Shown here: one piece after another, positions 1,344 to 7,279 of the stretch
How positions within the stretch are numbered: the first letter of the stretch is position 1
Layout: the number at the start of each line of letters is the position of its first letter
Assembly (NCBI GenBank): GCA_021927905.1
Contig: BLLK01000045.1
Span: 1,984,001-2,048,000 of the forward strand
Source of the DNA: Chaetoceros tenuissimus
Taxonomy: Eukaryota; Bacillariophyta; Thalassiosirophyceae; Chaetocerotales; Chaetocerotaceae
DNA length: 64,000 nt
Reading direction: 5' to 3'
Made by a program: the position numbers and the translations under genes
The notes under the pieces: model-generated
What the model was told of the DNA's origin: nothing
Database searches by the model: none
What the model saw: the letters and a program-made list of their open reading frames with translations, nothing else

Positions 1344-2293
1344 GGTTGAAACAGCGAAACTTTACACAGACAGTGTCAGTCAGAATGATACCCCTCTTTT
1401 CTTCCAGTTGTAATACCCCTTCTCTCACCGAATGAAAATGGTGCCGCGAGTCTCTTGCCTAATATGCAAAAACGACAATTTCCAGACAAGCAAATGGACT
1501 CGATTCAAATGAAAACGAGATATAGTCAGTGATCCTCCCTAGTATGAAATGAATATTTCAAGAAGAAATGACTATGACTCGAAACAAATGATGGAATTCG
1601 TTAAGCACAGTGAGAATTTCTGTGTTTTTTGCACCTGATAAATTCTGTTTTAGTGATGCCCCAACTTAGTTCACTACACACAAAATTTGTCAGTCCCCTC
1701 CACTACCTATCTATTCAATTGAAAATGAACTATGTGTACAATAGAACGTGATAAGTGCGTATTTTGAGTATAAATCTAGGAGGGTCAGATACAACAGCAA
1801 CTTAAACTCACTCTGTTGTTGTCGTTATTCTGCTTCGTGCTAAGTGCTTCCTGTTCTGGTAGAGGGGTGAGAAAAGTATTTGCATCGCCCCCAAGTTGAT
1901 TTTTTTTAAAAACCACAAGGTTGAAATATTACAGTAGTACCTATGTATTGTAGTCATTAAAATTCATTTTGTTGCTTAGATCTATCTATAAGAAACATAT
2001 TATAATTTACTCTTCCTACATTAGCTCTAGCAAAACAGTGTCAAAGGTAGATAGATAAACTTTGTTTGAAAAGTTTTTTATAAATGTATAACTTTTCTGC
2101 ACAAGACTCCAACAACATACACGGTGACTTCTTATTTAAATAAGAAAGAGATACGAAAGCTTATTATGCATGGATTTTATCATCACAATTCAAATACAAT
2201 CAGGTCAAAAAGCAATGTGTAACATAGTCTGGGAGCCTGTTACTTTAATTGTTTGTTTATATAGCAATTTTACTCCTATTCTATCAGCATATT
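1344..2293. other. Intergenic, CCR4 5' side to tRNA-Cys
   Basis: I see no coding frame with support and no RNA gene here. It is AT-rich, with a T8 run near 1900. It should hold the CCR4 promoter (leftward) and the upstream region of the permuted tRNA; no specific element could be recognised. Confidence 0.5.
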
Positions 2294-2371
2294 TCGAATG
2301 GTCACTGGTTCGATCCCGGTTGTGCGCTTCTTGCGCGCATATAGCTCAGTGGTAGAGCGTTCGATTGCAGA
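2294..2371 (+). tRNA. Circularly permuted tRNA-Cys(GCA): 3' half precedes 5' half
   Basis: The two halves of one tRNA lie in inverted order. 3' half: 2294-2328, holding the 3' strand of the anticodon stem TCGAA (2294-2298), variable loop TGGTC, T arm ACTGG-TTCGATC-CCGGT (2304-2320), acceptor strand TGTGCGC (2321-2327) and discriminator T (2328). A 6-nt linker (2329-2334) follows. 5' half: 2335-2371, holding acceptor strand GCGCATA (2335-2341), T8-A9, D arm GCTC-AGTGGTA-GAGC (2344-2358), G26, stem TTCGA (2360-2364) and loop TTGCAGA with U33 and anticodon GCA (2367-2369). Joined as 5' half + 3' half, all arms close: acceptor 7/7 (one G-T), D 4/4, anticodon 5/5, T 5/5 (one G-T). U73 is the expected discriminator of tRNA-Cys. 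The A box (2342-2352) and B box (2307-2317) are both present but in reversed order. No ordinary partner half is seen on either outer side. The exact joining point (37/38, 38/39 or 39/40) cannot be fixed from sequence. Confidence 0.88.
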
Positions 2372-2374
2372 TAA

Positions 2375-2379
2375 TTTTT
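2375..2379 (+). terminator. T5 run, likely Pol III terminator of the permuted tRNA
   Basis: Five T residues lie just downstream of the 5' half of the permuted tRNA-Cys, where a Pol III transcript covering 3' half, linker and 5' half would end. The position is seen directly; the function is inferred. Confidence 0.5.
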
Positions 2380-2782
2380 GCTTCAAAAGTATTTATTTAA
2401 AAATACGGTTTTACATTTTCAATCCTTTCAACTGTTGCATTGGAGTTATGATATTTTGCCATGTTAATCTAGATAATCAGAAAACAAACAAGTTGCGATT
2501 TCTGATGAAGAAACAAGTTCTTGTTCTTTTGTGCTTTTCTTTTGTTTCTATTAGTTTGAGGCCAATAATAGGTAACGAGCCCGTCCATTTCTCTGAGCTT
2601 AGAGGTCACAGGTCACCTTCAAATTTCTTTCACTTTGATTCCCTTCTTTGAACCAAAACCCAGTTCAATTGCAACACCTATCTTCAATTGTTCTGCTACG
2701 AGACAATCAATTACAGCTAGTGGATCTAATTACAAGGTTGTCTTTGGAGAGAGGGTTTGGATTTTTGGTCATATATCAAACG
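2380..2782. other. Leader region of the cap methyltransferase gene
   Basis: The reading frame of the downstream methyltransferase stays open upstream to about 2648 but has no ATG before 2783, so this is read as 5' UTR/promoter. Nothing else was recognised. Confidence 0.5.
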
Positions 2783-5065
2783 ATGACTTATCCAAGTTCA
2801 AATCCAGTGAACAAACATGATCTTGTCAGCACAGTAGATGTATCTGTATCGAGACTCTTGCCATCTTTGGAACCTAAAACTTTACCCAATGAAGCAGCTA
2901 CAATTGTAGCATCTCCACCAAGCTCAAGCAAATATACCAAATGCATATCGACTATATATACGTACTCAGATTCGCCATCTACACCACGCCCACTATATCC
3001 AAAATTACCAATCTTTGGCTTTTGCACACTGTCTAGTATTGGCTTATCATCACCTTCCTTTATGGAACCTAGTATCGAAGGAATGACAACCTGTAGAGTG
3101 GCTGTGAAAAGAGCTGATGGGGATCATAAGCGACATTTGAAAGAAAAAGATATCATAAACTGTCAAAAATTTTCATATCTTTGCAAACAACTTCGAGATC
3201 ACGAATCCAGTGCTTACTTTTTATGTGCAAAGACACAACGGGCAGGATTTATCGTCGCAATGGATGATACTGTGGATGGAGGAGACTATGCAGCATATTG
3301 TTTAGTGACAGATGTGTCTGATTTAGAAAGAATATTGTGTAGTAGTAGCGAAGAAGCTAATGGTAGCTCAAGTCCTCAATTTGTCCCAACAACTCCACCA
3401 TATGTACCAAGCACACCACCCTATGAAGCTAATAATGATGTCACTGAGGCAAATAATACAGACAGTACCGGGCTATGGCAACCGCCTTCAGCCAACGATG
3501 ACACGAATAATTTATGGCAACCTTCTACACCAGAACATGATGCTAGTGGTGGAGATACTTTCACTAATACTTTTGCAATGAGTGATTACACTAGTAACAA
3601 CGACGATGGAAATAATAATGGTGATCAGAAATTCAATAATGACGATCCACCCAAAGAAGACGATGAAGAAAATCATTTTCATGGCGACTCTGGCGCTAGA
3701 GCAGCTGATAATTTTTATTCAAACTTGACACGTTCAATGGGTACAAGGGCAGATTCTTCTCTTTATCACATGAGAAATTTTAATGGATGGGTAAAAGCTA
3801 CACAAATTGCGGAATTAGATCCCTTAACTATCAATTCAAATAGCAATTCCAATAAGAGAAAAGCAACAAGGCATCCTCTGCGTATAGTGGACTTAGCATG
3901 CGGGAAAGGTGGAGATATTGGAAAATGGGTTCTTCATAAGAGAGGTATTGCCAATTATGTAGGGGTTGATGTAGCAAGGGGATCACTGGTAGATGCTGCT
4001 ATACGAGCAAGAAAAATGAAAAGACAACTTGGGGATAAGTGTGTTTTCACATGTGCAGATTTAGGTGCCGATGTTCCAGGTAGACTGAAAACCAAGAGCT
4101 CTACCAAAATGCAAAAACTTTCTTCTTGGTCATTGAAAAATGATGATCCATCGCAAGATCCAAAGTTCTCATTTGTAAGAGGAGGAGGTATATCAGAAAC
4201 CGATAAATTTGATGTGGTTAGTATCCAGTTTGCTATCCATTATATGATGTCCAGTGTGACTAGGGCTAGACGATTTTTTCATACTGTTTCAGAATTGCTT
4301 GAGATTGGAGGAAATTTGATAGCAACAACTATTGACTCAAGAGTCGTGATGCAGCATATGATGAATACTGGTTACAACTTCCACTTCGACGAAGAGAGTG
4401 AGAAGGATGGTCTTACAGTTTCGGTTGGAAATGGTGCTTGTCAATTGAAGTTCACGAGAAATATCGTCGAGAAAATATTCACACGTAGCAACTATGAGTC
4501 CGAAAATGGGTTGAATCCCGATTATTTTGGGCTTGAATATACTTTCACACTAGTGGAAGGTGAAGACCACGCGGCAGGAGTTGGTCAAGCGGTGGATTTA
4601 CCTGAATGGCTGACGCCATTGCCAGTATTGACAGCACTTGCAAAAGAAGCAGGACTAGAACTAGAATACGCATCTAACTTCCATGAATTTTTTAATGAAC
4701 GAACAGATCACTATGCTCACCATGCTGCTCATGGAGCATTGTACAATATGAACGTTCTGAATAGAAGTGGAACAATATCAGATCAAGAATGGGAAATAAG
4801 TAGAATGTACATGGCTGTGAAATTTCGAAAAAAGAGCGAGTCCAAGATAGTAATTTCACAAGATGACACTGAAGAGGAGGATAGTGATGGAGAATCCGAG
4901 TCTGTCGTATCAAATCCAGTACCAACATCAAAATCCCCTCAGCATGACCAGTCGAAATTTTTCCTTGCAATGAAGAAAGCTAGGCAGATTTGCGGCTCTG
5001 AATGGCAAAATATGAATGCAGATGAGCGAAATGCTAAAACAAAGGAAATTCTTTCAAAGCTGTAA
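2783..5065 (+). CDS. mRNA cap guanine-N7 methyltransferase with long N-terminal extension
   Basis: Transfers a methyl group from S-adenosylmethionine to N7 of the cap guanosine of nuclear pre-mRNA (RNMT/Abd1 family). The SAM-binding motif I, VDLACGKGGD, is near residue 370 and is followed by Y-V-G-V-D-V-A and V-S-I-Q-F-A-I-H-Y. The cap-pocket region F-G-L-E-Y-T-F-T-L and the ending Y-A-S-N-F-H-E-F-F are also typical. About 300 residues precede the catalytic domain: a Ser/Pro-rich start, a short basic region (KRADGDHKRHLKEKD), a 'T-P-P-Y-V-P-S-T-P-P-Y' repeat and an Asn/Asp-rich linker. Family members are usually about 430-480 aa, so this one (about 760 aa) is long. The tail after the catalytic domain is acidic. 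ATG 2783 is the first Met in frame; the open frame upstream begins only with TTG. A single exon is sufficient. Confidence 0.9.
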   Translation: MTYPSSNPVNKHDLVSTVDVSVSRLLPSLEPKTLPNEAATIVASPPSSSKYTKCISTIYTYSDSPSTPRPLYPKLPIFGFCTLSSIGLSSPSFMEPSIEGMTTCRVAVKRADGDHKRHLKEKDIINCQKFSYLCKQLRDHESSAYFLCAKTQRAGFIVAMDDTVDGGDYAAYCLVTDVSDLERILCSSSEEANGSSSPQFVPTTPPYVPSTPPYEANNDVTEANNTDSTGLWQPPSANDDTNNLWQPSTPEHDASGGDTFTNTFAMSDYTSNNDDGNNNGDQKFNNDDPPKEDDEENHFHGDSGARAADNFYSNLTRSMGTRADSSLYHMRNFNGWVKATQIAELDPLTINSNSNSNKRKATRHPLRIVDLACGKGGDIGKWVLHKRGIANYVGVDVARGSLVDAAIRARKMKRQLGDKCVFTCADLGADVPGRLKTKSSTKMQKLSSWSLKNDDPSQDPKFSFVRGGGISETDKFDVVSIQFAIHYMMSSVTRARRFFHTVSELLEIGGNLIATTIDSRVVMQHMMNTGYNFHFDEESEKDGLTVSVGNGACQLKFTRNIVEKIFTRSNYESENGLNPDYFGLEYTFTLVEGEDHAAGVGQAVDLPEWLTPLPVLTALAKEAGLELEYASNFHEFFNERTDHYAHHAAHGALYNMNVLNRSGTISDQEWEISRMYMAVKFRKKSESKIVISQDDTEEEDSDGESESVVSNPVPTSKSPQHDQSKFFLAMKKARQICGSEWQNMNADERNAKTKEILSKL

Positions 5066-6330: not shown

Positions 6331-7279
6331 TCTTGCTATGAGTTGTTCCAAAAAGTTGATTCCAACTTGATGGCAAACTCATTCGCCAAACTTTTTGAAA
6401 AGAATAAAGGCGCACTCTTGTTTATAAGTTTCGACTTCTTTCCCTGGGAAGATGAAACCGATCGTACTTCCTAATCAGAAGAGTGGATTAGTTCTTTCAA
6501 GTAGGAGTAGAAAGCCTCTTTGGGAATCGGGTATGAGATCGTTTAAATACATAGATGGATGTCGCAGCGAAACACAAGCTTCTTCCACTGTTCCCATACC
6601 ACATCCCAAGTGCCGTAAGCGTTGAAAGATTTTTATTTCTACGAAGAATGAAGAATCTCACAAAATTGTCATGCTCTATGGGACTAAAACAACCTTATCA
6701 AAAATTACTCAGATATTTTTGAAGTTAAATTAAAGTGATTTGCTCATATATCTTATTCATTTCACGGGAAAGGAATAAAAGATTGCATACATTTTCTGAA
6801 AACGGAAAACCTTCCGCCATTCGTTAGTTATATGTTTTACGTACAGTAGGCAACCATTATGTTTTTGAATTCTATCATTTCTGATATCTCTCCAAATCCA
6901 TATCTTCATTACCGATTATCTGGATAATCTTTTTTATAATTAATAATCAATAATCTTCTTACATTAAAAACATAGTCACAGTCACCACAGAATGTCTCAT
7001 TTAGATATTTTCTGAAGATTTGAGGGATGATCAACTATTTTGTCATTGTGGATGATGGAGGATTACACATGAGGTGCATTACCTAAGTAAGTATGATTAA
7101 GTCATTATTTCAATCTGCAACACTACCGTGACTCCTCTTCTAAAAGCTCAAACTCTAAATAGATGGACATATTTTAGAAAGTTTTTATAAAGTAAGGTAC
7201 ATCAGACTCACCTCTTCGATTAGTAGCTGATCAGCTGCACCCCCTATGTCCTGCGTCTTGCTCTGAGCTTGTTCTCAGA
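6331..7279. other. Divergent intergenic region
   Basis: About 950 bp between two divergent genes. It is AT-rich with several ATAAT-type tracts around 6935-6960. No coding frame, RNA gene or long repeat was seen; it should hold both promoters. Confidence 0.5.

Follow-up and report, generated by a model that had tools for sequence, protein, structure and literature searches.

Three dispersed copies of a circularly permuted tRNA-Cys(GCA) gene in the nuclear genome of the diatom Chaetoceros tenuissimus

The locus analysed here raises the following question: is a tRNA-Cys whose 3' half stands before its 5' half a gene used by the cell, or only the likeness of one? The window, i.e., the whole stretch of DNA that was analysed, is 64,000 nucleotides long (G000:C32:1984001-2048000, GC content 37-41%) and comes from Chaetoceros tenuissimus; its copy of the gene is named C32. 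The region 2293-2379 of the window is a tRNA-Cys(GCA) gene with its halves in reversed order. It is very probably one of three functional permuted nuclear genes (type II, junction 37/38), which together are the sole source found of cytosolic tRNA-Cys(GCA). The permuted tRNA-Cys proposed in an earlier note is supported by (i) the cloverleaf; (ii) a held-out covariance model; (iii) two more permuted copies; (iv) the lack of a linear nuclear copy in the searches made; and further by (v) a TATA box, a terminator and a pairing between the leader and the anticodon loop. In the absence of RNA data, transcription, the circle, ligation, trimming of the linker and ends, CCA addition and charging are all inferred.

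The features of the locus are collected in Table 1. The segments read directly are TTCGAATGGTC-ACTGG-TTCGATC-CCGGT-TGTGCGC-T for the 3' half and GCGCATA-TA-GCTC-AGTGGTA-GAGC-G-TTCGA-TTGCAG for the 5' half. Two reversed halves of a tRNA-Cys separated by 6 nt, with a T5 tract 3' of the 5' half, had been described in the earlier note, and direct reading bears this out. The halves and the linker had been rightly recognised; the junction was placed 1 nt off (2294-2328 and 2335-2371, vs. 2293-2328 and 2335-2370 here). With the former border, A38 belongs to the 5' half (2371); the eukaryotic cut at 37/38 gives U38. Animal, plant and yeast examples of tRNA-Cys have A38. The restored nucleotide 38 would be U here, a difference that counts against the present reading. 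Whether residue 38 is U or A is undecidable from the sequence alone.

Table 1. Position of the elements of the permuted tRNA-Cys gene in the window, and location of the intron-containing tRNA-Tyr genes
Feature	Position	Strand	Remarks
TATA-like box TATATA	2258..2263	+	35 nt upstream of nt 38
Leader, would act as intron 3' end	2282..2292	+	RNAfold MFE; pairing over the three copies
3' half, nt 38-73, with U73 discriminator and B box, no CCA encoded	2293..2328	+	identical in C20 and C48
Linker TCTTGC, 6 nt, joins tRNA 3' end to 5' end, would be excised at the acceptor ends	2329..2334	+	direct reading
5' half, nt 1-37, with anticodon GCA (2367-2369) and A box	2335..2370	+	identical in C20 and C48
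Trailer ATAA, would act as intron 5' end	2371..2374	+	direct reading
T5 run, Pol III terminator	2375..2379	+	TTTTT also in the other two copies
tRNA-Tyr(GTA) with intron	L043 (G000:C13:949600-949900), L044, L046, L049

Once the halves are put back in order, they make a class I tRNA whose four stems close as had been claimed: 7 bp in the acceptor and 5 bp in the T stem (one G-U each), 5 bp in the anticodon stem and 4 bp in the D stem. U33, the anticodon GCA and U73, also announced beforehand, are read directly; G37 is present as well, and the U73 discriminator is a mark of Cys. ARAGORN names the rejoined halves tRNA-Cys(gca), with either U38 or A38 and with all stems closed. A type II permuted gene must give a canonical cloverleaf with the invariant tRNA residues when rejoined at 37/38, and this is the case here. 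On the unrearranged window ARAGORN finds 0 tRNAs, the other two copies are likewise uncalled, and all Rfam families stay below their cut-offs in the window. Such silence is expected, since the halves are reversed.

The covariance model R3 for permuted tRNAs rests on 11 tRNAs of this genome, none of them Cys. An earlier model (R1) included Cys sequences, so its scores are circular. R3 gives 69.4 bits to the gene of the window (E 2.4e-20), whereas nothing else in the window exceeds 8.8 bits; the three permuted Cys copies obtain 69.4, 69.4 and 65.4 bits. A chance likeness was rejected on the distance between 69.4 and 8.8 bits and on the recurrence of the arrangement at two more places of the assembly. 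The R3 score demonstrates that tRNA halves stand in permuted order. Alone it is no proof of permutation, because an ordinary tandem pair also scores: R3 gives 57.1 bits to positions 6906-6990 of the viral contig L118, which span two linear tRNAs (6869-6941 and 6954-7026). The Cys copies are not the inner halves of tandem genes, since BLAST finds a single 3' half and a single 5' half per locus.

No second permuted isoacceptor was found in a partial search made only around A-box matches. There were 59 such matches, of which 20 were examined: 12 have an ARAGORN tRNA and 8 do not, one of the latter (L052) only because of the edge of its stretch. Six A-box matches in nuclear contigs without an RF00005 match lay outside this search. 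When 29 loci, almost none of which has a tRNA call by ARAGORN, were scored with the permuted model, the best value (30.1 bits) was that of a partial tRNA-Thr copy, against 75.3-79.3 bits for the Cys copies.

The assembly searched consists of 68 contigs with 41,027,912 bases in total. The largest one encountered is 4,456,483 bases long; C67 has 36,047 and C68 has 116,465. In PMC8613185, the genome of strain NIES-3715 is given as 41.0 Mb with 38.9% GC, a largest scaffold of 4.46 Mb, a mitochondrion of 36,047 bp and a plastid of 116,464 bp. Three permuted copies of tRNA-Cys are present, on three contigs (C20, C32 and C48), all with the 3' half first. The 72-nt rejoined tRNA has six BLAST matches in the genome, all of them half matches (1-36 or 37-72) with 100% identity, at three places; with E up to 10 nothing appears beyond these places (a first look took just 3 candidates). 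The 5'-half pattern with up to 3 mismatches gives 4 matches, i.e., three identical nuclear ones (C20, C32, C48) and a mitochondrial one, and the 3'-half pattern gives 3, at the same nuclear places.

All 72 mature nucleotides are identical in the three copies; linkers and flanks differ. The linker is TCTTGC (6 nt) in C32 and C48 and CATCGAGT (8 nt) in C20. C32 and C48 are thus probably the closer pair, as the linker is common to both. Beyond the gene itself, the alignment of the 3-kb loci extends no further than 5-8 nt on its 5' side and 10-13 nt on its 3' side: C20-C32 over 95 nt (91.6%), C20-C48 over 98 nt (90.8%) and C32-C48 over 98 nt (96.9%). The remaining matches between loci are no longer than 27 nt (E >= 0.09). 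In each copy the 3' half lies upstream of the 5' half on one strand with a short spacer, as is required of a type II permuted gene. An assembly rearrangement, which would have refuted the proposal, is very unlikely with three loci whose flanks are unrelated, and an artefact of this kind was rejected on the same ground.

An ordinary tRNA-Cys(GCA) elsewhere had been set as part of the other refuting result. No nuclear one was found within the limits of the searches: the linear tRNA-Cys genes found are mitochondrial and plastid only. Among the 15 places that one genome search yielded, the mitochondrial tRNA-Cys is the sole Cys. With a generic Cys pattern (TGGTARNGCNNNNGAYTGCA) there are 30 matches in the genome, of which 4 are exact, i.e., the three permuted copies and the plastid tRNA-Cys. 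The TGCA end is present in 16 of the 26 one-mismatch matches (1 mitochondrial Cys and 15 nuclear); all 15 nuclear ones were checked, and neither ARAGORN nor a linear Cys model recognises a tRNA in any of them. An A-box search with a short D loop gave 14 matches, and those identified include no new Cys (C44:176050 and C67:24641 left out). The RF00005 search scored just 63 of 2031 candidates, so its result is no proof of absence.

These searches bear on the possibility that the permuted genes are used but redundant, a linear nuclear tRNA-Cys having been missed because it is divergent, unassembled, N-masked or interrupted by a long intron. The assembly may be incomplete and the reach of pattern searches is limited; the genome searches were run without a Cys covariance model, and a strongly divergent linear nuclear tRNA-Cys is not excluded. 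Against this, the genome searches and the 15 further candidates gave no linear nuclear Cys, and the same generic pattern did catch the plastid Cys exactly and the mitochondrial one with a single mismatch. Redundancy is thus considered quite unlikely, and the three permuted genes are kept as the only nuclear source found. As all copies are permuted and no nuclear copy in normal order was found, the cell probably must circularise and re-cut an RNA for protein synthesis.

The flanks of the three copies share several elements. TATAW starts at -35 (C32), -35 (C48) and -36 (C20) relative to nt 38. Random places of the window have a TATAW starting between -38 and -34 in 1.1% of cases (P 0.011); with dinucleotide shuffles of the own upstream 60 nt of each copy the values for TATAW are 0.040, 0.072 and 0.088. 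Any TATAW within 60 nt upstream occurs at 8 of 22 linear nuclear tRNA loci (four SeC-called, which may be repeats). The box of the window is likely a Pol III upstream promoter element. On the other side, TTTTT begins 2 nt past the common GCAGAT in 3/3 copies, and none of the three linkers has a T-run of 4. The copies thus possess what is expected of a type II permuted gene in this respect, i.e., a TATA-like element upstream, a T-stretch downstream and no terminator in the linker.

The leader can pair with the anticodon loop. In the window, U33-G34-C35 has a possible partner in G2287-C2288-A2289, as has GATA (2370-2373) in TATC (2282-2285); both helices are present in the RNAfold MFE structure of the precursor. 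All three leaders end with CANAT before T38, the bulge being A-T-T38, with N facing U32, A facing U33 and C facing G34. The places opposite U32-C35 that are paired number 3 in C20, 3 in C32 and 4 in C48, i.e., 10/12. With registers drawn at random from the flanks upstream of these loci this is reached in 0.22% of trials (0.0022), and with C20 and C48 only (7/8 paired) the value is 0.58%. It should be noted that the register was taken from the known 37/38 splice motif and applied after the sequences had been seen. Moreover, the pairing is incomplete in two copies (3/4 places in C20, a U-U mismatch beside the bulge in C32). In the RNAfold precursors the leader and trailer form a helix in 3/3 copies, the exact 4-bp helix with a 3-nt bulge being found in C48 only. 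The bulge-helix(-bulge) formed by leader and trailer at the junction, a further property of type II permuted genes, is thus present, in a relaxed form in C20 and C32.

These common elements are also relevant to the idea that the loci are pseudogenes, i.e., unused remnants of a tandem tRNA-Cys pair that has lost its outer halves. Among the origins proposed for permuted tRNAs in PMC3978253 is a tandem duplication that then loses its outer halves, so dead remnants are possible. Remnants would have to account for three dispersed copies that keep every mature nucleotide identical between unrelated flanks, and for the leader pairing, TATA and T5 common to all; in addition, the searches revealed no further nuclear gene that could supply this essential tRNA. 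Such an origin without function is very unlikely here, and functional genes remain the preferred reading.

A second alternative is a Y RNA of the YrlA type, i.e., a stable tRNA mimic that binds Ro60 and is not matured to a tRNA. YrlA is a tRNA-mimicking Y RNA bound by Ro60; it has no anticodon arm to be joined and carries a Ro60-binding stem. Like the Cys copies, bacterial YrlA (RF02553) has a T arm, an acceptor-like hairpin and a D arm in permuted order; the missing anticodon arm and the Ro60-binding stem are what distinguish it. In an open-threshold scan the Rfam model matches 3/3 copies with 31.2-37.2 bits. These scores are far under the gathering score of 69, so the family criterion fails, and a 10-position stretch of the YrlA outer stem has no counterpart in the Cys copies. 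The TROVE/Ro60 domain has 0 matches in the genome in an exon-by-exon search, which a divergent gene could escape; among 14 control genomes Deinobacterium alone was positive.

Modules with the same order of arms exist elsewhere. The Cys-specific permuted pattern has 0 matches in the viral and prokaryote collections. A looser permuted pattern matches at least 120 viral stretches, and in the 80 stretches listed the 7-bp acceptor match is found in 7 of 81 matches. Eight viral contigs contain modules made of a T arm, an acceptor hairpin and a D arm, some with tRNA arrays. The viral modules in permuted order obtain 47.6-63.3 bits with the permuted-tRNA model, and the two tested with YrlA (L101 and L102) obtain 37.2 and 44.7 bits, under the cut-off. 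They may be Y-RNA-like tRNA mimics of phages that escape detection at the cut-off of Rfam. The Cys copies resemble these two modules in YrlA score and arm order, which speaks for a Y RNA. Neither the YrlA model nor the permuted-tRNA model alone separates the two readings, since the viral modules score with both. A Y RNA would have no need of U33-GCA-G37 and U73, nor would it be the sole nuclear tRNA-Cys found. The tRNA is favoured because no other nuclear tRNA-Cys was found; the Y RNA, disfavoured also by its sub-cut-off scores and by the absence of a TROVE domain in the search made, has a very low probability.

The most likely course from gene to tRNA, which is inferred, is as follows. Pol III would start some 10 nt before the 3' half, aided by the TATA-like box, and stop in the T5. 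The linear precursor would be closed by its anticodon stem; pairing of the leader to the anticodon loop would create the bulge-helix motif typical of splice sites at 37/38, where the tRNA splicing endonuclease is predicted to cut after G37 and before nt 38. A ligase (of the RtcB type, perhaps also Trl1) could then join 37 to 38 into a circular pre-tRNA, from which RNase P and tRNase Z would take off the 6-8 nt linker before CCA is added.

Part of this machinery can be recognised in the genome. The splicing-endonuclease domain PF01974 occurs at one place (C48:1112401-1112616, E 5.2e-14), in an open frame whose PDB matches are tRNA-splicing endonucleases (best E 1.2e-6). No second place passed in the genome search, a point against the present reading, as yeast has two catalytic subunits of this enzyme. 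RtcB has two matches at C32:462167-463562 (best E 5.6e-104). The four nuclear tRNA-Tyr(GTA) copies examined have a 13-nt intron at 37/38, in two intron versions. With introns allowed, ARAGORN names these four unspliced genes Asp; the one tested after splicing is tRNA-Tyr. An ordinary substrate of the splicing enzymes thus exists in the nucleus, given this intron at 37/38. As a separate observation, some 7.4 kb separate the PF01974 domain from the permuted tRNA-Cys copy of C48, probably by coincidence.

Circularisation could also be due to a self-splicing permuted group I intron instead of the tRNA splicing enzymes. Permuted intron-exon designs do circularise RNA in the laboratory. With cmscan, however, no group I intron was detected in the window (gathering scores) or in the three 3-kb loci (E up to 0.5). 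This route is extremely improbable, and the splicing enzymes are retained as the inferred agents of circularisation.

The reports of permuted tRNA genes consulted concern red algae, green algae, nucleomorphs derived from green algae, and a single archaeon (PMC3978253 and PMC12633428). The list of known cases given by the earlier note stands with two additions: permuted tRNA genes occur in the trebouxiophyte Auxenochlorella as well (PMC12633428), and Cys(GCA) itself is known in permuted form from three prasinophytes (PMC3978253). PMC3978253 lists 34 permuted tRNA genes, including these type II Cys(GCA) genes. The prasinophytes concerned (Ostreococcus lucimarinus, O. tauri and Micromonas pusilla) share with the diatom the isoacceptor, the junction 37/38, the nuclear location and the lack of an extra intron; their linkers are longer (26, 38 and 12 nt vs. 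6-8 nt). Some green algal permuted genes have an AT-rich region upstream, comparable to the diatom TATA. In the same review, a further set of permuted genes is described with the 3' half first, in most cases a TATA-like box in the 50 bp upstream, a downstream T-stretch and no encoded CCA, as in the diatom; their products are charged. That set comprises junction types I-IV and several isoacceptors, whereas the diatom has one isoacceptor of type II in three identical copies. The permuted tRNA-Ser of the Bigelowiella nucleomorph is likewise type II with very short linkers (5 nt). The chlorarachniophytes Bigelowiella and Amorphochlora differ in that theirs is a tRNA-Ser in a nucleomorph of green algal origin.

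No report of a permuted tRNA in a diatom or another stramenopile (Thalassiosira and Chaetoceros included) was recognised in the accessible parts of the open-licence literature. PMC4090602, PMC8450103, PMC2926784, PMC4929541, PMC8024477, PMC13353863 and PMC11528492 use the wording of permutation in other senses or for other groups, as far as their available text goes. The type II permuted tRNA is thus a known kind; the major lineage is new, as far as searched, and what is notable is the existence of three copies with no linear back-up found. Rather than having arisen independently, the permuted Cys gene may have come from a prasinophyte-like green alga by endosymbiotic or lateral transfer and have fully replaced the linear gene of the host, so that cytosolic cysteine decoding hangs on a circular RNA. 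This scenario is speculative and unlikely.

If confirmed, the present results mean that the permuted arrangement reaches a diatom nuclear genome, and in a strict form, i.e., three dispersed copies without any linear back-up found. The need for a circularising route then becomes directly testable in a culturable alga. Moreover, as Cys(GCA) is permuted both in prasinophytes and in a diatom, one may ask whether a single tRNA has met with the same accident repeatedly or whether the permutation was passed on. Other tRNAs «missing» from diatom annotations may hide in permuted form, since ARAGORN reports none at the three copies.

Other tRNA-like elements were met in the course of the analysis. Six dispersed ones, of which four are tRNA-SeC for ARAGORN and two are uncalled, have a common 3' hairpin (TTGTTCAAGCCTGGACATGCTTGAACAACC or near) directly after the tRNA-like part; they are possibly a tRNA-derived repeat. 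Four loci and further matches to TAGCTTAGTCGGTAGAGC are tRNA-Lys-like with an upstream stretch in common, and look like a SINE-type repeat. Finally, an open frame (2648-5065) lies on the same strand just downstream of the permuted tRNA; going by a sequence motif, its product looks like an mRNA cap (guanine-N7) methyltransferase.
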